Source: Gemmatimonas phototrophica (GTDB taxonomy: Bacteria; Gemmatimonadota; Gemmatimonadetes; Gemmatimonadales; Gemmatimonadaceae). From it: a stretch of DNA of 64,000 nucleotides. The position numbers and the translations under genes are program-made. A model generated the notes under the pieces. It made no database searches, was not told the DNA's origin, and worked only from the letters and a program-made list of their open reading frames with translations. The DNA lies in NCBI GenBank assembly GCA_945869195.1, contig CAMBNV010000007.1:62001-126000 (forward strand). The letters run 5' to 3'. The number at the start of each line of letters is the position of its first letter. Position 1 is the stretch's first letter. Of this stretch, positions 14,669 to 26,374 are shown one piece after another.

Positions 14669-15355
14669 ATGAATCGTCGGACCCTGCTCGCGCTCGTGAT
14701 TCTCGCCGCCGGCACACCCGTGCTGGGCGCGTGGCGCGCGGCGCGCGCTCCGCGGCTCGCGGTCGCCCGCTTGCAGTACGACGGCGACGACTGGTACGCG
14801 AATCCGTCGAGCCTGCCGAACCTGATTCGCGCTATCCGCGAGCGGACCACATTGGTGATCGACCCCCGCGAAGCGCGCACCACGTTGCTCGACGACCGGC
14901 TCTGGGACTATCCGTTTCTGCACCTGACGGGGCATGGGAACCTCAAGTTCAGCGAGACGGAGGTGCAGCGCCTGCGCGATTACCTGCTGCGCGGCGGGTT
15001 TCTCCATGCCGACGACAATTACGGACTCGATGCGCACTTCCGGCGCGAGATCGCGCGCGTCTTCCCCGACCGCAAGCTCGTCGACGTGCCGCTCGACCAC
15101 GCGATCTATCGGATCGTATATCCCTTCCCGGAGGGCGTCCCGAAGATCCATGAACACGACGCCAAGCCGGCCCGCGGGTACGGGATATTTATCGGTGACC
15201 GGCTGGCGGTGTTCTATTCGCATGAAAGCGATCTCGGGAACGGCTGGGAGGACATTGGGACCTATGCGGATGACCCACCGGCCGCACACGAGGCCGCCCT
15301 TCGCATGGGAGTGAATCTCTTCATGTACGCCGTCACCAGCGGGCCCGGGCGATGA
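14669..15355 (+). CDS. Exported DUF4159-domain protein
   Basis: The 228-residue product has an N-terminal hydrophobic helix (LLALVILAAGTPVLGAW) acting as signal peptide or anchor, then a DUF4159 domain: LAVARLQYDGDDWY, PFLHLTGHGNLKFSETEVQRLRDYLLRGGFLHADDNYG, and a late LGNGWEDIGTYADD. DUF4159 has a class I glutamine-amidotransferase-like fold, but its biochemical activity is not established. A GTG at 14666 is an alternative start. It overlaps the DUF4175-like gene (ATGA). In other bacteria these genes occur near MoxR/VWA clusters; none is visible here. Confidence 0.9.
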   Translation: MNRRTLLALVILAAGTPVLGAWRAARAPRLAVARLQYDGDDWYANPSSLPNLIRAIRERTTLVIDPREARTTLLDDRLWDYPFLHLTGHGNLKFSETEVQRLRDYLLRGGFLHADDNYGLDAHFRREIARVFPDRKLVDVPLDHAIYRIVYPFPEGVPKIHEHDAKPARGYGIFIGDRLAVFYSHESDLGNGWEDIGTYADDPPAAHEAALRMGVNLFMYAVTSGPGR

Positions 15356-18300
15356 GCGTCCTCGACCTTGTCCGGCGCGAAACGGCGCGTGCCGGCCGGA
15401 CGGCGCGCGTGGCCGGCGTGTTGGTTCCGCTCGGCGCCACACTAGCGCTGCTCACTGCCGGGGCGATGGGGCTCTCCCGCGGTCGTTGGCTCGAGTTGCC
15501 GCCCGTTGTGCCATTCGCCGTCTGGGCGGCGGCACTCGTCGGTGGCGCGTTCCTCGCCAGAGTCCTCGGGCTCCGCCTGGCCGCGACGACGACAGCGGAG
15601 GCCGTGGCACGCGCGATCGAGGGCGAGCAGCGGCTGCGGCGCGGTGCGCTCACGGGGCTGCTGGAAGTCGCCCATGAGGGCAGCGTTTTTGTCCGGTGGG
15701 CGGCTGAGGCGCTCGGCCAGAAGTTGGTCGGCGTGGAGTCGCAGCCAGCCCCTGCACACCGCCGAACGCTCCTGCGCTCGGCGGCGTTCTCGACGATCGC
15801 GTTCGCGAGCGTCCTCGCGCTCGCGAGTGGTTCATCGTCACGTCGCGCGGACGGCTGGAGCGCACTGCTGCATCCCGTCGCGGCCTGGCGCGGGACGTTG
15901 TTGCCGGGACTCGAGCTGACGAACGCGCCCCCACGCCTCGCGCGCGGCTCCGCGGTCACCTTCGGCGTGACGGCGCTTGGTCGACGCGAAGTCATGTTGC
16001 ACTGGCGCCTCACTGGTGCCGGGTGGCGCGACTCGCTCCTGACCATCGGACGCGACGGGACGGCATCGGTGACGCTCGCCGCCGTCGATGCCGATCTCGC
16101 ACTGGTCGCGAGCGACGGACGCGCGACAAGCGATACCGCGATGGTGCGGGTGGTCGACCGTCCGTTCCTCGGCGACGTGACGATCCGCGCGACCTACCCC
16201 AGCTATCTCGGCCGCGCGAACGAGCGACTCGACGCTGACCTGCCGTTGCGCCTGCCGTCGGGGACGCGGCTCACCTTCGAAGGGCACTCGTCGGAGGGAC
16301 TCGCCGAGGTCGCGCTCGTCTCCGAGGAGGCGCGTGTGCGCTTCGCCGTCGTGGCGACGAGTTTCAGCGGTGGTTGGATACCGACTAGCACCGCGATCTG
16401 GACCTGGAGTGCTCGCGGCGAGCGGACCGAGATCGCCGATCTCCCGGCCCCGCTGTCGGTCGAAGTACTCGACGACTCGCTTCCGCGCGTAGAGATTCTC
16501 GAGCCGATCGGTGAGGCACTGGTGGGCCTTAATGACCGTATCGGCGTGGAGATCCTTGCACAGGACGACCACGCCCTCGCCGGCGTCTGGCTCCGGCGTC
16601 GAATCGTCGATGTACGCGGCGTCGCCCGCGACTCGGCGGAGTATCGACTGAGCGACGCGCGCGAGGCCGAATGGCTCGGCGGTGTGGTGCAGAACATGGG
16701 CGACCTTGAGCTCGGCGCCGGCGACCGTGTGGAGATCGTCGTGGTCGCACGCGATGCCGCACCGGGACGGCGCGAGGGCACGAGCCCGACGCTCACGCTG
16801 CGCGTACCAAGTACCTCCGAGGAGCGCGCGGCGGCGAACGCGGCGAGTGCGGCCGCGGTGGCGGCGGCGAATGCGGCAGCGCAGGCGCAGGCGAAGCTCG
16901 CCGATCGGACCGAGACGGCCGCACGCTCACGCAGTGATCGCGGTGCGGCATCGGAGAATCAGCCCAGCCAGCCGCCCAACGCGCCGCCGAATCCGGCCCA
17001 TCCCCAGGCCGGTGGTGATCGGCCGGCGATGGGGTTTGAGAGCGCGGAGCAGGCGAAAGAGATCGCCGAACAGCAGCGCGCGCTCCAGGAGCGGGTGCAG
17101 GGTCTCGAGGCGGCGGCGCGCGAGATGGAAGATCGTCTGCGCGCTGCCGGCGCGCTCGACACCTCGCTGGCGCGGCAACTCCAGGACGCGCAGCGGTTGT
17201 TGCGCGAGGCAATGACGCCCGAGATGAGCGCCGCTCTGCAGCGGCTTGAAGGCGCCTCGAAGGAACTCAACGCGGACCGCACGCGGCAGTCGCTCGCAGA
17301 TCTCGCGGAGCAGCAGAAGCGGATGCGCGAACAGTTGGAGAAGAGCGCCGAGATGTTGAAGCGCGCCGCGCTCGAAGGGTCGATGCAGACGCTTGGCGAT
17401 CAGGCCAAGGAGCTCGCGCAGGCGCAACAGCAGTTCGCCGACAGCGCGCGCGCTGGCACCCCCGACCCGAAACGTGCTCAGCAGCTCGCGCAGCAGACAC
17501 GGGAAGTCTCTGAGCAGATGGAGGCGCTCCGGGAGCGACTCGAGCGTGAGCGGGCGAGCACCGGCGCGTCGCAGGCGGAACGGGCGGAGGCGGACGCGCG
17601 CCGATCGGAGGCCTCTCTGCAGGAGGCGATGCGGCAGTCGCGCGAGGCGCAGCAGGGCCCCGAGGGCAGCGCGCAGCGCGAGCGGGCGCAACAGGGCGCT
17701 CGTGATGCCGCCGAACAGGCGGCCGACGCGATGCAAAAGGCCGCCGAGTCGATGCAACAAGCGCGCCAGGGGCAGGTTGCCGAATGGAAAGGCGAGCTCA
17801 CCGATGCGATCGATCAGTCGGTGCAGGAAATGATGCAACTCGCGAGCGAGCAGGAACAGCTCGCGGCACAGGCACAGAGCGACCCCAATAACCCCGATCT
17901 GCGCGCCCAGCAGTCGGCGTTGCAGCAGGGGATGCAGATGGCCCAGCAGCGGCTGTCGGAACAGGCGAAGAAGTCGGCGCTCGTCTCGCCGCGTACGCAA
18001 CAGCTGGTCGAGCAGGCGCAGCAGCGCGTGCAGCAGGCGACGCGTGAGGCGGCGCAGTCGCAGCGCGGGCAGTCACCGCAGTCGATGCAGGAGGCGGCCA
18101 ACGCGATGCGTCAGGCGGCCGCCCAACTCACGCGGGATCGCGAGCGCGCGAACTCGGCGCAGTCCGCGTCTGGATTGCCGGAGATGATGCAGCAGATGCA
18201 GGAGCTCGCGCAGCAACAGGGCGCGCTCAACGGCGAAATGCAGAGCCTCTTCCCAGGGGCGCAGCAACGGCCATCGCAGGAGGCGCTCGACGCGACCAAT

Positions 18301-18723
18301 CGCGGACGGGCCCGCGAGCTGGCGCGATCACAACGCGAAGTCGCACGCTCGCTCGACGAGATCGCCGACAATGATCCGACGGGACGGGCGCAGGAGATGG
18401 CTCGCGAGGCGCGGTTTCTCGCCCAGGCGCTCGATCAGGGCGCGGTGGACCCGGCGACGCAGGCACGGCAGGAGCGCCTATTCCGACGGATGCTCGATGC
18501 TGGGCGTGCACTCGAGCAGGACCAGAAGGATGAAAGTCAGCGACGCGAGTCGCGCGCGGCGCGCGGAACCGCACGCTTCACCCCGCCTACTGGGCCTGGA
18601 CGTGGGCAGGCTGCGGCGCGCTATACCGTGCCAACATGGGAAGAGCTGCGCGGACTCAGCGCGGAGGAGCGCACCCTCGTCATCGAATACTTCCGGCGGT
18701 TGAACGCTGAGAAGTCACCGTGA
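15352..18723 (+). CDS. DUF4175-like membrane protein with long glutamine/alanine-rich coiled coil
   Basis: At 1123 residues this is the largest protein in the window. The first 160 residues hold three hydrophobic segments (around 22-40, 48-70 and 140-158), as in DUF4175-family proteins. A periplasmic beta-rich region follows (FGVTALGRREVMLHWRLTGAGWRDSL, with repeated DSLPRVEILEP-type strands). From about residue 490 to 1080 the chain is almost entirely Gln/Ala/Glu/Arg with heptad-like spacing, predicting a very long coiled coil. The final segment ends SAEERTLVIEYFRRLNAEKSP. Start and stop both overlap neighbours by 4 bases. Function unknown, probably an envelope-spanning structural or complex-scaffold protein. 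Confidence 0.8.
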   Translation: MSVLDLVRRETARAGRTARVAGVLVPLGATLALLTAGAMGLSRGRWLELPPVVPFAVWAAALVGGAFLARVLGLRLAATTTAEAVARAIEGEQRLRRGALTGLLEVAHEGSVFVRWAAEALGQKLVGVESQPAPAHRRTLLRSAAFSTIAFASVLALASGSSSRRADGWSALLHPVAAWRGTLLPGLELTNAPPRLARGSAVTFGVTALGRREVMLHWRLTGAGWRDSLLTIGRDGTASVTLAAVDADLALVASDGRATSDTAMVRVVDRPFLGDVTIRATYPSYLGRANERLDADLPLRLPSGTRLTFEGHSSEGLAEVALVSEEARVRFAVVATSFSGGWIPTSTAIWTWSARGERTEIADLPAPLSVEVLDDSLPRVEILEPIGEALVGLNDRIGVEILAQDDHALAGVWLRRRIVDVRGVARDSAEYRLSDAREAEWLGGVVQNMGDLELGAGDRVEIVVVARDAAPGRREGTSPTLTLRVPSTSEERAAANAASAAAVAAANAAAQAQAKLADRTETAARSRSDRGAASENQPSQPPNAPPNPAHPQAGGDRPAMGFESAEQAKEIAEQQRALQERVQGLEAAAREMEDRLRAAGALDTSLARQLQDAQRLLREAMTPEMSAALQRLEGASKELNADRTRQSLADLAEQQKRMREQLEKSAEMLKRAALEGSMQTLGDQAKELAQAQQQFADSARAGTPDPKRAQQLAQQTREVSEQMEALRERLERERASTGASQAERAEADARRSEASLQEAMRQSREAQQGPEGSAQRERAQQGARDAAEQAADAMQKAAESMQQARQGQVAEWKGELTDAIDQSVQEMMQLASEQEQLAAQAQSDPNNPDLRAQQSALQQGMQMAQQRLSEQAKKSALVSPRTQQLVEQAQQRVQQATREAAQSQRGQSPQSMQEAANAMRQAAAQLTRDRERANSAQSASGLPEMMQQMQELAQQQGALNGEMQSLFPGAQQRPSQEALDATNRGRARELARSQREVARSLDEIADNDPTGRAQEMAREARFLAQALDQGAVDPATQARQERLFRRMLDAGRALEQDQKDESQRRESRAARGTARFTPPTGPGRGQAAARYTVPTWEELRGLSAEERTLVIEYFRRLNAEKSP

Positions 18724-20426
18724 TCGTGCGGTGCGCTGGGGTGTTGGCACTCGGCTCGCTGGTACTCGTCGCGTCGCTCGTGCGCCCAGTCACTGCGCAG
18801 GAGTCAGCGGCAACGGCCGCGATACTCGCTCGCGCGCTCGATGCGGAGTCGGCGGGCCGGAACCGTGACGCGATCACCGCCTGGCGTGCGGCACTTGCGG
18901 CGGGTGCGGTCGTGCCCAGCATCCTGGGGCTCGAGCGAGTCTTCTCCGGGCTGGCGCAAGAGGAGTCGCTCCTCGTGGCGCTCGACACGCTGGTGCCGAA
19001 GTACCCGCGAGAGTGGCAGCTCCGGACGGTGCAGTTGCGCGTACTTACGACGATGGGACTCGATGCCCGCGCGGCGATGGCGTTCGCCGAGTGGCGCGAC
19101 CTCACGCCCGCCGAGGTCATGCCGTATCGAGAGTTTGCGCGGGTGTTGCTGTTCGGCAATCGTGCTGCCGCCGCCGATACCGTGCTGCGCGAAGCCTCCG
19201 CCGCCCTTGGCTCGACGAAGGCGTTGGTACTGGAGGTCGCGCAGATGCGCGCCGGGCTCGGACTCTGGCGCGAAGCGGCCGAAGCCTGGCGCGACCTAAT
19301 GGTCGAGGAGCCCTATTATGAGTCGGCCACCGTCTGGTCGCTCATGGCGGCCCCCGCGGCCGCGCGCGACGCGGTGCGTGGCGTGCTCGGTGGCCCCGCG
19401 GTCTCGTTAGGGACGACCCAGGCGCTCGCCTTTCTTGAGGTGGCGTGGAACACGCCCCGCAGCGGCTGGATGGCGCTCGCCGCCCTCCCGACGACCGATA
19501 CGACGATCGTGCTCTGGCGACTCTTTGCCGACGAGGTCGAGCGGGTACGCGCCTGGTCGACCGCGCGCGACGCCTTCGCTGCGATCCACGCGGCCCGTCC
19601 CGACGCCGGCATCGCACTGCGCGGGGCGCAGGCCGCGCTCGCCTCGGGCGATGCGGCGACGGCGCTCATCCTTGCCCGCTCCGCGGCGCCGATGCTCGAC
19701 GAGGTCGATCGCAACGCCAACGCGCTGCCGATTGAACTCGACGCGTTGGCGCGGCTCGGGCGCGCGGCCGAGGCCGAAGCGTTGCTCGCAGGCGCGGCGC
19801 TCGCGATCGGCCCCGATGGAGTGCGTGCGCACGCGCGCCTGATCGCGTGGGCCTGGATCCGCGCCGGTGACGTCGTCCGTGCGAAGCACGCGCTTGTCGA
19901 CGCGCCGCTCTCGGCGGAGGATGCGGTCGCGGGATGGCTCGCGCTCTTTGATGGGGATCTGGTGACGGCGCGCGGCGCGTTGCGTAACACTGAGGTGCCC
20001 GGACAGGACGCCGTCAATGCGCTCGCCCTGTTGAATCGTACGCCGCTGGAACGATCGGAACCCATCGGTGCCGCCTTTCTCGCGCTGGCCCGTGGAGACT
20101 CCACGCAAGCATCGCGGCGGTTCGAAGCGGCGGCGTCCGAGCTTCCCGACGCCGCATCGTTGCTGCTCACGTTGGCGGCCCGCATTGAGACGTCACGCCG
20201 CAACGAGGACCGGTCGACGGCACTCTGGCGGCGGCTGGCGGCGGAGCATCCGCAGTCTGGCGAGGCGCCGGAAGCGCATTTCGAGTTGGCGCGCGGATCA
20301 CGGCGGCGAGGCGATAACCAAGGTGCTCGCGAACACCTCGAAACATTGATTCTCGATTATCCAAGAAGTGCGCTCGTGCCCCAGGCGCGACGTGAGCTTG
20401 ACGCTTTGCGCACAGGAGCAGTCTGA
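18720..20426 (+). CDS. Exported TPR-repeat protein
   Basis: This 568-residue protein starts at a GTG overlapping the DUF4175-like stop. An N-terminal hydrophobic region ending RPVTAQES is a signal peptide of about 25 residues. The rest is helical repeats of about 34-36 residues with TPR-like residues (ALDAESAGRNRDAITAWRAALAAG near the start, APEAHFELARGSRRRGDNQGAREHLETLILDYPRSALVPQA at the end). The last repeat resembles YbgF/BamD-type TPRs found in envelope proteins. It overlaps the next gene by one base, and shares the operon with DUF4159 and DUF4175. Confidence 0.8.
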   Translation: MIVRCAGVLALGSLVLVASLVRPVTAQESAATAAILARALDAESAGRNRDAITAWRAALAAGAVVPSILGLERVFSGLAQEESLLVALDTLVPKYPREWQLRTVQLRVLTTMGLDARAAMAFAEWRDLTPAEVMPYREFARVLLFGNRAAAADTVLREASAALGSTKALVLEVAQMRAGLGLWREAAEAWRDLMVEEPYYESATVWSLMAAPAAARDAVRGVLGGPAVSLGTTQALAFLEVAWNTPRSGWMALAALPTTDTTIVLWRLFADEVERVRAWSTARDAFAAIHAARPDAGIALRGAQAALASGDAATALILARSAAPMLDEVDRNANALPIELDALARLGRAAEAEALLAGAALAIGPDGVRAHARLIAWAWIRAGDVVRAKHALVDAPLSAEDAVAGWLALFDGDLVTARGALRNTEVPGQDAVNALALLNRTPLERSEPIGAAFLALARGDSTQASRRFEAAASELPDAASLLLTLAARIETSRRNEDRSTALWRRLAAEHPQSGEAPEAHFELARGSRRRGDNQGAREHLETLILDYPRSALVPQARRELDALRTGAV

Positions 20427-21691
20427 TGCAGTACCGTAGCGTGGGGCCGCTACTCCTCGCAGTCCTGTTGTCCGCGCTCCCGGCGCGGGCGCAGCATCTG
20501 CTCATGCCGATGGACGACGAGCAGGCCAATCATCTGAAGGCCTATGGGGTCACGTTTAGTGCGCTGACGGATGGCCTCCGCGCCGAGTGGCTGCTCAACT
20601 TTCGTGGCGGAAGCTTTCTCGTGCCCGACCTGCCGAGTCTGCGCCGGGCGGCGGCACTCGCGGGCGTGACATTTGAGGTCGTCGACGCTGATCGTCTGGT
20701 GCAAATCCGGAAGGAGATCGCGGACGGCAACATGGATGCGGTGCCGCTCGAGAAATCCCCTCGAATCGCCGTCTACACGCCACCCGACGCGCCGCCCTGG
20801 GACGACGCCGTGACGATCGCACTCGCGTACGCGGGCATCCCGTATGAGAAAATCTGGGACGACGATGTCCTGAACACTGACCTCGCCCAATACGACTGGA
20901 TCCACCTGCATCACGAAGATTTCACGGGGCAGGCGAACAAACTCTTCCTCGGGTTTCGTGATGCGCCGTGGTTCCTGCAGGCGCGCGACCGCGATCTCGC
21001 GACGGCGCGGCGGCACGGGCTGGGCGACGTCCCGGCGCTCAAAAAGGCGGTAGCCGACCGGCTACGTGCTTTTGTCGAACGCGGGGGCTTCCTCTTTGCG
21101 ATGTGCGGTGCCACCGAGACACTCGAGCTGGCGATGGGCGCGAGGCTCATCGACATCGCCGGTCCGTTCAGCGACGGCACGCCGATGGATCCCGACGCCG
21201 ACGCCAAAATGGACTGGAGCCGCACGTTTGCGGCCCAGGGCGCGCACCTCGAGTTCGCCGCCGGCGTGAATGCGATGAGCGACATTGACGGGCACCAGGT
21301 CAATGTCCCGTCGCGCCGCCAGCCGCTGGGGACATTTACGCTCTTCGGGTTCTCGGCCAAGTTCGATCCGGTCGCGACGATGCTCGTGCAAGACCATCGC
21401 ACCGTGATCAGCGACTACTACGGCGTCACGACATCGTTTCTGCGCAAAGTGCTCAAGCCCGGCGTGACGGTGCTCGCGCATGAGGAGGGCGCGCCCTGGG
21501 CGAAGTACATCCACGGCTCGTATGGTCAGGGCTCGTGGACCTACCTCGGTGGACATGACCCAGAGGATCCGCAGCACAATATTGGCGCCCCGCCGACGGA
21601 CCTCGCGCTCCATCCCAACTCGCCGGGCTACCGGCTGATTCTAAACAACGTCCTCTTTCCGGCTGCAAAAAAGAAGCCGCTCAAGACGTGA
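20426..21691 (+). CDS. Secreted amidotransferase-fold-like protein (often labelled asparagine synthetase B)
   Basis: The 421-residue product has a signal peptide (LLLAVLLSALPARAQ, cleaved near residue 23). The mature part has no asparagine synthetase N-terminal cysteine or ATP-pyrophosphatase domain. It instead contains strands and turns reminiscent of class I amidotransferase or ThuA-like folds: SPRIAVYTPPDAPPWDDAV, YDWIHLHHEDFTGQ, and RAFVERGGFLFAMCGATETLELAM with a nucleophile-elbow-like cysteine. I recall related proteins being annotated as asparagine synthetase B, which this sequence does not support. It is coupled to the TPR gene and to the JAMM-DinG gene by overlaps. Confidence 0.6.
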   Translation: MQYRSVGPLLLAVLLSALPARAQHLLMPMDDEQANHLKAYGVTFSALTDGLRAEWLLNFRGGSFLVPDLPSLRRAAALAGVTFEVVDADRLVQIRKEIADGNMDAVPLEKSPRIAVYTPPDAPPWDDAVTIALAYAGIPYEKIWDDDVLNTDLAQYDWIHLHHEDFTGQANKLFLGFRDAPWFLQARDRDLATARRHGLGDVPALKKAVADRLRAFVERGGFLFAMCGATETLELAMGARLIDIAGPFSDGTPMDPDADAKMDWSRTFAAQGAHLEFAAGVNAMSDIDGHQVNVPSRRQPLGTFTLFGFSAKFDPVATMLVQDHRTVISDYYGVTTSFLRKVLKPGVTVLAHEEGAPWAKYIHGSYGQGSWTYLGGHDPEDPQHNIGAPPTDLALHPNSPGYRLILNNVLFPAAKKKPLKT

Positions 21692-24228
21692 GCGTGCCGG
21701 AGGAGGTCGCCGGCACGCCGTACCATGGCGAGACGGCGCGCCTGACTGCGGGCGCCGCCAATGCGATTCGTTCGGCGATTCGTCTCACCGGCGGACGCGA
21801 GGTCTGCTTCGTCTGCACGATTGACAACGAGGGGGTGGTGCAGAGCGCGCGGGTCGCCGCGCGCGGCGATGTGCGCAGCGTGCTCGCACTCCCTGGATTC
21901 GCGAATCGGGGCGAGCTGCTCGTCCACAACCACCCGAGCGGCTGGCTCGAGCCGAGCGGTGCCGATCTCGAGGTCGCAGCGCGCCTGCATGACGATGGCA
22001 TCGGATTCGCAATCATCGACAACGACGCGGCGCGGCTCTATGTGGTCGTTGAGGTCCCCCCCGCCAAAAAACGCGCGGTACTCGCCCCCGGTGATGTCGC
22101 CGGGCTGCTTGGACCAAACGGGCCAATCGCCGAGCATCTCGGGCGTTACGAGGACCGTCCGAGCCAGCGTGAGATGGCCCGCATCATCGCGCAGCTGTAC
22201 ACGCACGGTGGCGTAGGTCTTATCGAAGCGGGCACGGGTGTCGGTAAGTCACTCGGGTATCTCGTGCCGGCGCTGCGGTGGGCCGCCGAGAGCGGAGAGC
22301 GGACGGTCGTGAGTACCAACACGATCACACTGCAGGAACAGCTGACGGGGAAGGACCTTCCGTTTCTTGAAAAGGTGCTCACCGATCAGAAAGTGCGGTT
22401 CGCGCTGCTGAAGGGGTGGCGCAACTATCTCTGTTTGTTGCGTCTCGAGCAGGCCCGCCTGCAGGGACCGTCTCTCTTTGACGATGGCGCACAGGCCGAG
22501 CTCGCGATGCTCGAGCGGTGGGCGGAGCAGACCACCGACGGCTCGGTGGCCGATCTCCCCACGCAGCCCAAGAGCGAGGTGTGGGACGAGGTCGCCGCCG
22601 AGGGGGACCTCTGCACGCGTCTGCGGTGCCCGCATTTCGATAAGTGCTTCGTCTTCAAGGCGCGCCGCGCGGCGGCACAGGCAGACGTGATCGTCGTGAA
22701 CCATCATCTGCTCATGGCCGACCTCGCCGTGCGGCGCGCGTCGCAGCGGTGGGACGACGCGGCCGTGTTGCCCGCGTACAAGCGACTGATCGTCGACGAA
22801 GGGCACCACCTGGAGGACGCGGCGGCCGACCATCTGGGGCAGTCGGTCTCGCGCAGCGCGCTTGAACGGCTTTTCGCGCGATTGGAGCGGCGCGGAAAGG
22901 GGCTGTTGCCGGCGCTCGAGCGGGCGCTCTCCAAGGGGAATGACCTCCTCAGCATCGCCAGCCTTGACCTGGTGCGGGCGCGCCTCGCGCCGTCGCTCTT
23001 CGCCGCACGCGACAAGAGCGCGCTGCTCTGCGACCTGCTCGGTTCCTGGCTCGGCAGTCAGCGCGAGAAACAGGTGCGGCTCACCGAGAGTTTCGACGAC
23101 GACCCGATCTGGCGCGCCGGTCTCGGCGCGGCTCTCGACGACCTGCTCGCCGAGATCGAGTTGCTCGGCGATGGTCTGCGCATGGTGCGTGACCGCCTGG
23201 AGACCGACGAGAAACGTGCGGAGGAACTCGCCCCACTGCTCAACGAGGTGCGCGGCGTGGCGCGTCGTCTCCAGACCTCAGGTGACGCGCTGCGCGCCGC
23301 GCTCCGGCCCGATCGCGAGGGGCTGCCGCACGTGCGGTGGCTCGAGCTGCGCGGGAGCGACCGCAACGTCGGGGCAACCTCGGTGCCGCTCGATCTGGCA
23401 CCGCTCCTGCGCGAGGATCTGTTCCGGCGGATGGAGACGACGATCATCACGAGCGCGACGCTCTCCGTCAGCGACGGGTTTGACTTCATCACGAAACGGC
23501 TCGGACTCGATGACGACCAACTCGAACCCCTCACGGCGTCGCTCGCCTCGCCATTCGATTATCCACGGCAGGCGATGCTTGCGATCCCGAGCGACTTTCC
23601 CGCGCCCAATACCGACGGCGTGCGGCACCTGCAGCGGACGATCGACGCGGCGGCTGACCTTATCGAGTTTGCGGGCGGCGGTGTATTCGTGCTCTTCACG
23701 AGTCATCGCGACGTGAAGGAGGCGGCACGCGTGCTGCGTGAGCGCGGGGTGGGCAACACCCACCCGATGCTCGTGCATGGCGAGGCGCCGCGCGACGACC
23801 TGCTGCGGCGCTTTCGAGAGCATGGGGACGCGGTGCTTGTTGGCACGGCGAGTTTCTGGGAAGGGGTCGACGTCCCCGGCCGTGCGCTCCGCGGGCTGGT
23901 GCTGGGACGGATCCCGTTTCGCGTGCCGACGGAGCCGATCACGGCCGCGCAGTGCGAAGCACTCGAAGCTGAGGGAAGGGACTCCTTCGCGGAGTACATG
24001 ATCCCGCATGCGGCGCTCAGGCTCAAGCAGGGATTCGGCCGTCTCATCCGCACGGCGACCGACCGCGGGGCAGTCGTGATCTGCGATCCCCGAGTGGTCA
24101 CGAAGGGCTACGGACGGCGTCTGATCGAGGGGCTACCCCCAGCCACGCGGATTCAGGGACCGTGGATGATGCTCCGCGAGGAGCTCGCGGCCTTCTATCG
24201 GCCAGCCGAATCGGTTCGAAAGGGGTAA
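21688..24228 (+). CDS. dinG: DinG-family iron-sulfur DNA helicase with N-terminal JAMM (RadC/JAB-like) domain
   Basis: The 846-residue protein joins two domains. Residues 20-125 form a JAMM metallo-isopeptidase-like domain: an upstream glutamate in GGREVCF, then H80-N-H82-P-S and S90-x-x-D93, the same pattern as RadC. Residues 150-846 are an XPD/DinG-type 5'-3' helicase with Walker A EAGTGVGKS (180-188), DEGH box (370-373), four cysteines suited to a 4Fe-4S cluster (C249, C309, C314, C320), the SATLS motif, and the QGFGRLIR motif VI. DinG helicases unwind DNA/RNA hybrids and forks. The start is a GTG overlapping the previous stop. The JAMM fusion is unusual; see findings. Confidence 0.9.
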   Translation: MSVPEEVAGTPYHGETARLTAGAANAIRSAIRLTGGREVCFVCTIDNEGVVQSARVAARGDVRSVLALPGFANRGELLVHNHPSGWLEPSGADLEVAARLHDDGIGFAIIDNDAARLYVVVEVPPAKKRAVLAPGDVAGLLGPNGPIAEHLGRYEDRPSQREMARIIAQLYTHGGVGLIEAGTGVGKSLGYLVPALRWAAESGERTVVSTNTITLQEQLTGKDLPFLEKVLTDQKVRFALLKGWRNYLCLLRLEQARLQGPSLFDDGAQAELAMLERWAEQTTDGSVADLPTQPKSEVWDEVAAEGDLCTRLRCPHFDKCFVFKARRAAAQADVIVVNHHLLMADLAVRRASQRWDDAAVLPAYKRLIVDEGHHLEDAAADHLGQSVSRSALERLFARLERRGKGLLPALERALSKGNDLLSIASLDLVRARLAPSLFAARDKSALLCDLLGSWLGSQREKQVRLTESFDDDPIWRAGLGAALDDLLAEIELLGDGLRMVRDRLETDEKRAEELAPLLNEVRGVARRLQTSGDALRAALRPDREGLPHVRWLELRGSDRNVGATSVPLDLAPLLREDLFRRMETTIITSATLSVSDGFDFITKRLGLDDDQLEPLTASLASPFDYPRQAMLAIPSDFPAPNTDGVRHLQRTIDAAADLIEFAGGGVFVLFTSHRDVKEAARVLRERGVGNTHPMLVHGEAPRDDLLRRFREHGDAVLVGTASFWEGVDVPGRALRGLVLGRIPFRVPTEPITAAQCEALEAEGRDSFAEYMIPHAALRLKQGFGRLIRTATDRGAVVICDPRVVTKGYGRRLIEGLPPATRIQGPWMMLREELAAFYRPAESVRKG

Positions 24229-24852: not shown

Positions 24853-25733
24853 CGAACCGGCGCCGCATCACGCTGCTCCCGACGCGCCGCGGTGATCCGC
24901 GCGTCTCGGTCGCGGCGTTTGTGCTGCAGCTCGCGATTATCGCGATCATCGTGCCGACGTTGCTGGTGCCGGTCGCGTTCGACCTCCTGCGCGACTCGTC
25001 GGGCCGGGTGGTGATGCCGGAACGAATCAGTTTCCTCACGGCGGTGCCGGCCAGCACGGGGCCGAGTATTCGGCCTGCGCAGGACGGCGGGGATGGCCGC
25101 GCGGCGGTCGCCGATCCGCAGCCAGCCGCGACGATCATCGCACCGGCGGCGGTGCCCAGCGGTGTCCCCGTCAACGTGACCGCCGGCCGCGCGCCGGCGG
25201 GGGGCGTCGGTCCGTTGGTCGGCGGCGGTGGACCGACGCTCGGTATCCGACCATCGTTCAATGACCCGCGGCTCTGGCAGCAGCCAGCGGATGTGGTGGA
25301 GGCGCCGATGGTGCCAATGACGCGCGCCGACTCGCTGCAGGCGTTGCTCTGGGCGACCACGACGGAGTTTATCGACTCGATGAACCGCGCGACACCGGGG
25401 GCCGGCCGCGCGCCGGGCGACTGGACGTTTGAGCGCAAGGGGAAGAAGTACGGCATCGATCCAATGATGATCCGCCTTGGAGACTTTTCGATCCCGACCG
25501 CCCTGCTGGCCCTCTTGCCAATGAACAATCTGCAGGGGAATCCGATTGGCATCGAGCGCGCGCGACGGCTGAGCTCGATGCGCAGCGAGATCATGGAGCA
25601 GGCCGAGCGCGCGGCGCGGGACGATGACTTCTATGCCGCCGTGCGCGCATTGCGCGAGCGCAAAGAGCGGGAACGCCGTGAGGCGGCGGCAAAGCAGCAG
25701 GTGCTGCCGCCAGCGCTCCCCGTCTTGCGCTAG
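24849..25733 (+). CDS. Membrane-anchored protein of unknown function
   Basis: I do not recognise this 294-residue protein. It starts at a GTG overlapping the FAH stop (GTGA). After an arginine-rich cytosolic tip there is one transmembrane helix (VAAFVLQLAIIAIIVPTLLVPVAF, about residues 20-45). A low-complexity proline/alanine/glycine stretch (about 65-150) separates it from a C-terminal domain (RADSLQALLWATTTEFIDSMNRATPGAGR onward) that ends in a charged coiled coil. The layout suggests a periplasmic effector on a flexible stalk. Its stop shares the 4-base palindrome CTAG with the convergent lexA-like gene. Confidence 0.65.
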   Translation: MTNRRRITLLPTRRGDPRVSVAAFVLQLAIIAIIVPTLLVPVAFDLLRDSSGRVVMPERISFLTAVPASTGPSIRPAQDGGDGRAAVADPQPAATIIAPAAVPSGVPVNVTAGRAPAGGVGPLVGGGGPTLGIRPSFNDPRLWQQPADVVEAPMVPMTRADSLQALLWATTTEFIDSMNRATPGAGRAPGDWTFERKGKKYGIDPMMIRLGDFSIPTALLALLPMNNLQGNPIGIERARRLSSMRSEIMEQAERAARDDDFYAAVRALRERKERERREAAAKQQVLPPALPVLR

Positions 25734-26374
25734 CGCTTGTCGCCTGACTCAGCGCTGTCGGCGCGGATCACGGGAAGGCGCAGGACGCCGCTCAACGTTC
25801 CCAAAATCTCGTAATCATCGGCGGGGCCGAGCTCAATATCATCTGCGCCATCCCGCGGCGTGCGCAGCACAAGCGTCTGGCCACGCCGTGCGAGCGACCG
25901 CACCAAGACGGCACCTCCCACCCGCGCGACCACTGGCGTCTCGTCTCCCGCCCGCCCACCCGGATGCACGAGCAGTAGATCGCCCGCGCGCACGCTGTGC
26001 GCTGGCGCGTCCTCATGGTCAGCGCGCACGAGGTAGCAGTCGTCGGCCGGCAGATGAATACGGTCGATCGTGACATGGTCCTCAGCGACCATCACCGGCC
26101 CCGGCGCAATACGCACCACCGTCACCGGCATCGTACCGGCGCCACCAGAGAACCCCTCGATCACCAAACCGCGCGACCGGCCCGGTGAGCGGCGGACGTA
26201 TCCCTTGCGCTCGATCGACGCGATGAGGTCCGTGACCGTTTTGGTCGATGGGATCCTGAAGTGGCGCGCGATTTCCCGGACGCTCGGCTGGAACGTGCGT
26301 TCCGCGAGATAGTCGATCAGGAAGTGGTAGACCTTCCGCTCGACCTGCGTGAGAGGGGCGCGCGGCGCGTCCAT
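25730..26374 (-). CDS. lexA: LexA-family repressor with degenerate self-cleavage residues
   Basis: The 214-residue product keeps the LexA layout: a winged-helix DNA-binding domain (LTQVERKVYHFLIDYLAERTFQPSVREIARHF, then TVTDLIASIERKGYVRR) and a C-terminal S24-type fold. Aligned without gaps to my memory of E. coli LexA, the scissile Ala-Gly becomes Ala90-Pro91, the catalytic serine becomes Asp122 (in LVRADHEDAPAHSVRAGD), and the catalytic lysine becomes Arg159 (VLVRSLARRG). It should therefore bind DNA and dimerise but not cleave itself. It follows gltX directly with no gap. See findings. Confidence 0.85.
   Translation of the reverse strand: MDAPRAPLTQVERKVYHFLIDYLAERTFQPSVREIARHFRIPSTKTVTDLIASIERKGYVRRSPGRSRGLVIEGFSGGAGTMPVTVVRIAPGPVMVAEDHVTIDRIHLPADDCYLVRADHEDAPAHSVRAGDLLLVHPGGRAGDETPVVARVGGAVLVRSLARRGQTLVLRTPRDGADDIELGPADDYEILGTLSGVLRLPVIRADSAESGDKR

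Follow-up and report, generated by a model that had tools for sequence, protein, structure and literature searches.

The window, a 64,000-nucleotide stretch of Gemmatimonas phototrophica DNA (Gemmatimonadota; assembly GCA_945869195.1, contig CAMBNV010000007.1, positions 62,001 to 126,000 of the forward strand), carries at positions 21688-24228 (+) an open reading frame of 846 amino acids in which a JAMM/RadC domain is fused to a YoaA-type iron-sulphur helicase, as determined using a combination of Pfam and NCBIfam profile searches, AlphaFold2 modelling and Foldseek comparison. The gene starts with GTG and overlaps the stop of the upstream reading frame by 4 nt. The JAMM/RadC domain covers residues 17-122 (21736-22053, +) and contains the catalytic glutamate E38 (21799-21801), the metal-binding motif H80-N81-H82 (21925-21933), which is followed by P83-S84, and S90-x-x-D93 (21955-21966), comprising the catalytic serine and the third metal ligand, all spaced as in the canonical JAMM constellation E...HxH-x7-SxxD. 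The initial annotation, made from the letters alone, had placed a JAMM domain at residues of about 20-125 with H80-x-H82-P-S, S90-x-x-D93 and an upstream glutamate, and all of these were located as claimed, the glutamate being E38. The domain is followed by an interdomain linker (residues 123-150, 22054-22137) and by a protein part with the features of XPD/DinG superfamily 2 iron-sulphur helicases, namely a Walker A motif AGTGVGKS at residues 181-188 (22228-22251; A181-G184, G186 and K187 are invariant in alignment A3), a DEAH-type box, the four cluster cysteines C249, C309, C314 and C320 (spanning 22432-22647), a Helicase_C_2 domain at residues 656-818 (23653-24141) and a DinG fold. The fusion is thus real and intact, and its metal set is complete.

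The Pfam RadC model (PF04002, cut-off 22.1 bits) scored 25.4 bits against the whole protein and 31.0 bits when residues 1-161 were taken alone, and Helicase_C_2 (PF13307) scored 146.2 bits in the C-terminal part. The full-length RadC models NF000642 and TIGR00608 scored 23.2 and 18.8 bits, far below their respective cut-offs of 180 and 133.85, and aligned with the fusion protein only at the HNHPSG region. The top NCBIfam model was the YoaA helicase (NF053712) with 573.6 bits, under its whole-protein cut-off of 680, followed by the DinG equivalogs NF008729 and NF005981 with 419.2 and 450.5 bits, below their cut-offs of 598 and 789. The helicase predicted in the initial annotation, a DinG protein with four cluster cysteines, is complete and has these cysteines; by profile score it is closer to YoaA (573.6 bits) than to DinG of E. 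coli (419.2 bits).

Structural modelling agreed with this layout. The full-length AlphaFold2 model reached a predicted local distance difference test score (pLDDT) of 91.0 and a predicted template modelling score of 0.89, and its first Foldseek match was E. coli DinG with single-stranded DNA (6fwr, E 2.7e-42). For residues 16-150 the pLDDT was 93.3. The best solved sequence-profile relative of the JAMM domain was Chlorobium RadC (2qlc, E 3.5e-8), which also gave the best Foldseek hits of the domain model, and VIA-align comparison gave Z scores of 10.8 for BubCD, 9.9 for archaeal and yeast Rpn11, 9.7 for CSN5, 9.4 for PfJAMM1 and 8.1 for RadC 2qlc. The N-terminal domain is thus predicted to take the JAMM fold that the initial annotation had expected, a common fold being no proof of function.

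In ordinary RadC the same JAMM domain is coupled to a helix-hairpin-helix part that binds DNA, and an asparagine between the two histidines is a RadC signature, serine or threonine being usual in JAMM peptidases. The JAMM domain of the fusion shares with canonical RadC (PF04002; TIGR00608; 2qlc) the H-N-H-P-S-G...P-S-x-x-D signature, and differs in that a 700-residue helicase replaces the helix-hairpin-helix part and in that canonical RadC is encoded by a separate gene of the same genome. With the JAMM/MPN+ peptidases Rpn11, CSN5, PfJAMM1 and BubCD it shares the fold (Z 8.9-10.8) and the E-HxH-x7-SxxD constellation, whereas it has HNH in place of HSH or HTH, an attached helicase and no known ubiquitin-like partner. 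E. coli YoaA, the best model match of the helicase part, has the same layout of motor, iron-sulphur and arch domains, lacks the JAMM domain and partners with HolC. In ExoDinG and EndoDinG proteins (B. subtilis and S. aureus DinG, and others) an enzymatic domain likewise stands in front of the same helicase, this being a DEDD exonuclease or another nuclease where the fusion has JAMM.

The architecture itself has been published, and the gene by itself is no discovery. A RadC-DinG fusion was already mentioned in 2017 (PMC5512222), and Cheng 2025 classed the subgroup as 'RadC-like DinG', with a Desulfuromonas soudanensis protein as its type, modelled this protein with a zinc ion and reported JAMM proteases as its structural neighbours, the subgroup being, according to that text, without any research to date (PMC11981726). 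The window protein has every testable feature of a RadC-like DinG: an N-terminal RadC-like JAMM domain with E38, H80, H82 and D93, a YoaA-like helicase with iron-sulphur and arch domains, and a genome without HolC. There is no essential difference between them, Gemmatimonadota being not named in the main text of that study. New here are a census of at least 116 fusions by DNA pattern, estimates of selection, and the lineages in which the JAMM site is dead or the domain lost.

Conservation was assessed in 61 homologues from the window's phylum and in a scan of bacterial and archaeal genomes for the pattern CAC-AAY-CAY-CC followed, after 270-300 bases, by a Walker A sequence AGTGTGK. This pattern fixes H80, N81, H82, P83 and Walker A, whose conservation in the scan set is accordingly no evidence. 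Among the matches listed, 116 of 117 were in-frame fusions (at least 116 therefore exist), and E38, S90 and D93, none of which is fixed by the pattern, were present in 116/116. Retention in the 61 proteins of the same phylum was 58 for E38, 59 each for H80, H82 and the H80-N81-H82 motif, 60 for S90 and 58 for D93; the relatives thus retain the H-x-H-P...S-x-x-D residues whose absence, according to the initial annotation, would have made the fusion coincidental. RadC was detected by Pfam in 59/59 homologous N-termini tested, and H80 and Walker A were 101 residues apart in 55/57 proteins of the phylum, with a linker of weak conservation in between (1/27 positions at 95% or more in the same-phylum alignment).

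The domain order recurs across many phyla. Record titles of the 116 loci among the matches listed name about a dozen, including Gemmatimonadota, Desulfuromonadales, Geobacteraceae, Spirochaetota, Fusobacteriota, Halanaerobiales and other Bacillota, Brocadia (Planctomycetota), KSB1, Calditrichota, Sumerlaeota, Myxococcota, Acidobacteriota and an Acidimicrobiia metagenome-assembled genome (MAG); the majority of the loci come from MAGs, and individual phylum assignments may be binning errors. Two loci, L140 (a MAG named Planctomycetota) and L161 (Vicinamibacteraceae), encode Gemmatimonadota-like fusions with the same GREV motif and cluster serine, and their contigs may be misbinned. The window protein is 45-49% identical to loci named Gemmatimonadota vs at most 41% to nearly all others. 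A match was found in 167/200 genomes of the window's phylum and in 78/80 of Fusobacteriota; in the phylum of Geobacter 12/118 had a fusion-type match, and most of the other matching genomes there encode a YoaA-like protein that is short, at about 650 amino acids. In a tree of the helicase core, the short homologues of E. coli, Aeromonas and Desulfobacterota group apart, in a clade of their own with full support. Viral spread of the fusion was rejected: no fusion was found in IMG/VR contigs with the pattern in either His codon variant, nor was a full fusion present in phage records. Two records of the plasmid collection, NZ_CP084075.1 (Fusobacterium vincentii) and NZ_AP026896.1 (Aeromonas caviae), are 2.1 and 4.9 Mb long and look like chromosomes deposited as plasmids.

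The four cluster cysteines vary by clade. Among the matches listed, the 112 readable rows comprised 78 CCCC, 21 SCCC, 12 CTCC and 1 CCCS, and 44/61 proteins of the window's phylum, the window protein included, were CCCC. The first cysteine (window residue 249) is serine in 21 Gemmatimonadota-like proteins of the scan (L077, L080, L092, L139, L164, L170, L183 and others) and in 17/61 proteins of the phylum, and the second is threonine in 12 proteins, mostly deltaproteobacterial, so that a single ligand of the iron-sulphur cluster is substituted clade-wide.

Within the window's genus, the non-synonymous rate (dN) was 0.112 for the JAMM domain and 0.125 for the helicase, with a synonymous rate (dS) of 1.00 in both, and the linker evolved much faster (dN 0.34). 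Purifying selection on the JAMM domain is thus equal to that on the helicase. The helicase-core tree (87 rows) was built quickly, without a mixture model, and is unrooted, two outgroup rows being long branches. JAMM-less helicases of three genera (g2, g4 and g7) fall inside a fully supported clade of 13 that holds six fusions, the window protein included, and the domain was therefore lost there; one further JAMM-less case, L041, sits among fusions of another family. Dead JAMM sites occur in the window's phylum (L043/L044 and L056) and in two Fusobacteriota lineages (L074/L303-L305 and L301/L302), in which neither histidine remains and the glutamate has been lost or replaced by aspartate. In one Fusobacteriota clade copies with a dead site are sister to copies without the domain, as though the site had decayed first and the domain been lost later. 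About four inactivations and about three or more losses of the JAMM domain are counted, the helicase being kept each time; given the quick tree and its missing root, these counts are estimates. Given that the helicase has outlived the metal site, or the entire domain, in several lineages, the JAMM domain would assist the helicase without being indispensable.

The fusion is the sole Helicase_C_2 protein of its genome, and nearly all genomes of the phylum that were checked have at most one. Eight genomes of the phylum (G042, G054, G097, G120, G125, G150, G047 and G095), representing whole families or genera, have no PF13307 match and keep ordinary RadC. A separate ordinary RadC is encoded elsewhere in the window's genome and in most genomes of the phylum, and the fused JAMM domain is therefore no mere stand-in for it. 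A joint loss of ordinary RadC and the JAMM site was considered and dropped: all three dead-site genomes of the phylum lack RadC, but RadC is also lacking in at least 12 genomes with an intact site, and F. vincentii retains it with a dead site. Adjacency of radC and the fusion gene was likewise dropped, the two being three genes apart in one genome (Psychrilyobacter) and this arrangement not being seen elsewhere. HolC (PF04364) was absent from the window's genome and from 17 others with a fusion (18/18), and was detected in the E. coli control.

The fusion gene is preceded by genes for a DUF4159 protein, a large product that matches no Pfam family, a TPR-like protein and an unknown of 421 amino acids, in this order. 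Three large upstream genes on the same strand have no Pfam match, at 15352-18723 (1123 amino acids), 18720-20426 (568 amino acids) and 20426-21691 (421 amino acids), the last of which, directly upstream of the fusion, is also present in six Gemmatimonadota loci; parts of the window's gene order recur in loci of this phylum. The next gene downstream belongs to the fumarylacetoacetate hydrolase family. A lexA gene (LexA DNA-binding domain and S24 peptidase) is found at 25730-26374 (-), 1.5 kb downstream of the fusion; it lies downstream of gltX and is convergent with the fusion's operon. No neighbour shared between phyla emerged in 105 loci, where the largest cluster comprised 13 loci in mixed positions, and a conserved neighbourhood was rejected as a functional clue.

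From what is known of the family, the fusion protein would be an active helicase with a role in repair. Where replication or repair intermediates are blocked or damaged, it may load on their single-stranded DNA and unwind them, and the JAMM/RadC metal site, tethered in front of motor domain 1 by the short, variable linker, would hydrolyse a target on the strand gripped or exposed by the motor. The initial annotation had suggested that the JAMM domain acts at DNA ends or hybrids or takes a conjugate off a repair complex. That an active hydrolase is coupled to helicase translocation, giving either a helicase-metalloprotease for DNA-crosslinked proteins or the first proven JAMM nuclease, has in our judgement nearly an even chance. 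We infer the hydrolytic activity and its substrate, for which nucleic acid (end trimming or nicking) is the first choice, because the partner of this JAMM domain in ordinary RadC is a DNA-binding part and because other DinG-like helicases bear a nuclease at the same N-terminal position. Such an exonuclease is described in PMC11981726 and PMC12525004, the latter attributing degradation of single-stranded DNA to the N-terminal exonuclease of B. subtilis DinG, and a nuclease role for RadC was proposed from context by Aravind and colleagues (PMC5512222; PMC3482391). In two groups, genes for repair nucleases adjoin the fusion, which supports this proposal: endonuclease IV directly upstream on the same strand in six loci of Halanaerobiales and other Bacillota (L097, L117, L133, L141, L144 and L157), and a ligase-associated DNA damage response exonuclease one or two genes upstream in five loci of KSB1/Calditrichota (L088, L111, L126, L127 and L175). 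Several points weigh against it. Repair genes are a minority among the neighbours, of which none is shared across phyla; no RadC-type JAMM was shown to be a nuclease in the literature found; the modelled fold matches mostly peptidases; and the retention of a domain without either histidine in some lineages points to a binding role there too. A YoaA-type helicase that tethers an active JAMM hydrolase acting on the exposed strand, with nucleic acid as the substrate, is therefore proposed tentatively, as a possibility that falls short of an even chance.

Protein removal is a close second among the substrates because, to our knowledge, every characterised JAMM enzyme is an (iso)peptidase. The JAMM domain would then be a metalloprotease stripping covalently or tightly DNA-bound protein met by the translocating helicase, so that helicase and adduct protease would be combined in a single chain. 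This is consistent with the full and invariant E-HxH-x7-SxxD set and with the closest folds, those of BubCD, Rpn11, CSN5 and PfJAMM1, all of them (iso)peptidase JAMM domains, although the asparagine between the histidines is that of RadC and no peptidase activity of RadC was found in the literature. JAMM peptidases have also been reported as structural neighbours of the subgroup (PMC11981726), whereas Aravind and colleagues argue that RadC has no groove to take up a ubiquitin tail (PMC5512222). On balance, we consider an adduct protease somewhat unlikely.

Alternatively, the JAMM domain may serve chiefly for binding or regulation, as a platform for SSB, a clamp or another repair protein, or as an auto-inhibitory lid over the helicase, the metal being structural. 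The dead-site domain is kept in at least two Fusobacteriota lineages and in two lineages of the window's phylum, which shows that its retention can also have a non-catalytic reason, and with HolC, the partner of YoaA, absent, another recruiter may be needed. However, all five residues are invariant in the large majority of proteins, including the catalytic E38 and S90, which a structural metal would not require, and E38 was lost along with both histidines in most dead copies, as expected for a loss of catalysis. A mainly non-catalytic role is thus unlikely. The best structural match, to the JAMM portion of Citrobacter BubCD (Z 10.8), would fit a deubiquitinase-like enzyme that serves a dedicated ubiquitin-like conjugation system of bacteria, but the motif bears the RadC signature, no E1-, E2- or ubiquitin-like protein was a conserved neighbour in the 105 neighbourhoods (the largest clusters were inspected, with no dedicated family search), and the fusion spans phyla in which, from general knowledge, such systems are not general; this explanation is very improbable. 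A coincidental fusion, through a chance motif or the join of two genes, has no point in its favour and a negligible probability, being refuted by the residue conservation, the same architecture with constant spacing in many phyla and the JAMM-fold model.

Among bacterial proteins that lack an accepted function, RadC is one of the most widespread. The fusion ties a RadC-type catalytic domain to an enzyme of known substrate class, single-stranded and forked DNA, its metal site is strongly selected, and matched natural lineages exist in which this site is intact, dead or deleted; the function of a RadC-type JAMM domain is therefore directly testable on one protein. Should the domain prove to be a metalloprotease or a JAMM nuclease, the fusion would represent a kind of enzyme not so far demonstrated in bacteria, and ordinary RadC would gain its missing biochemical function.

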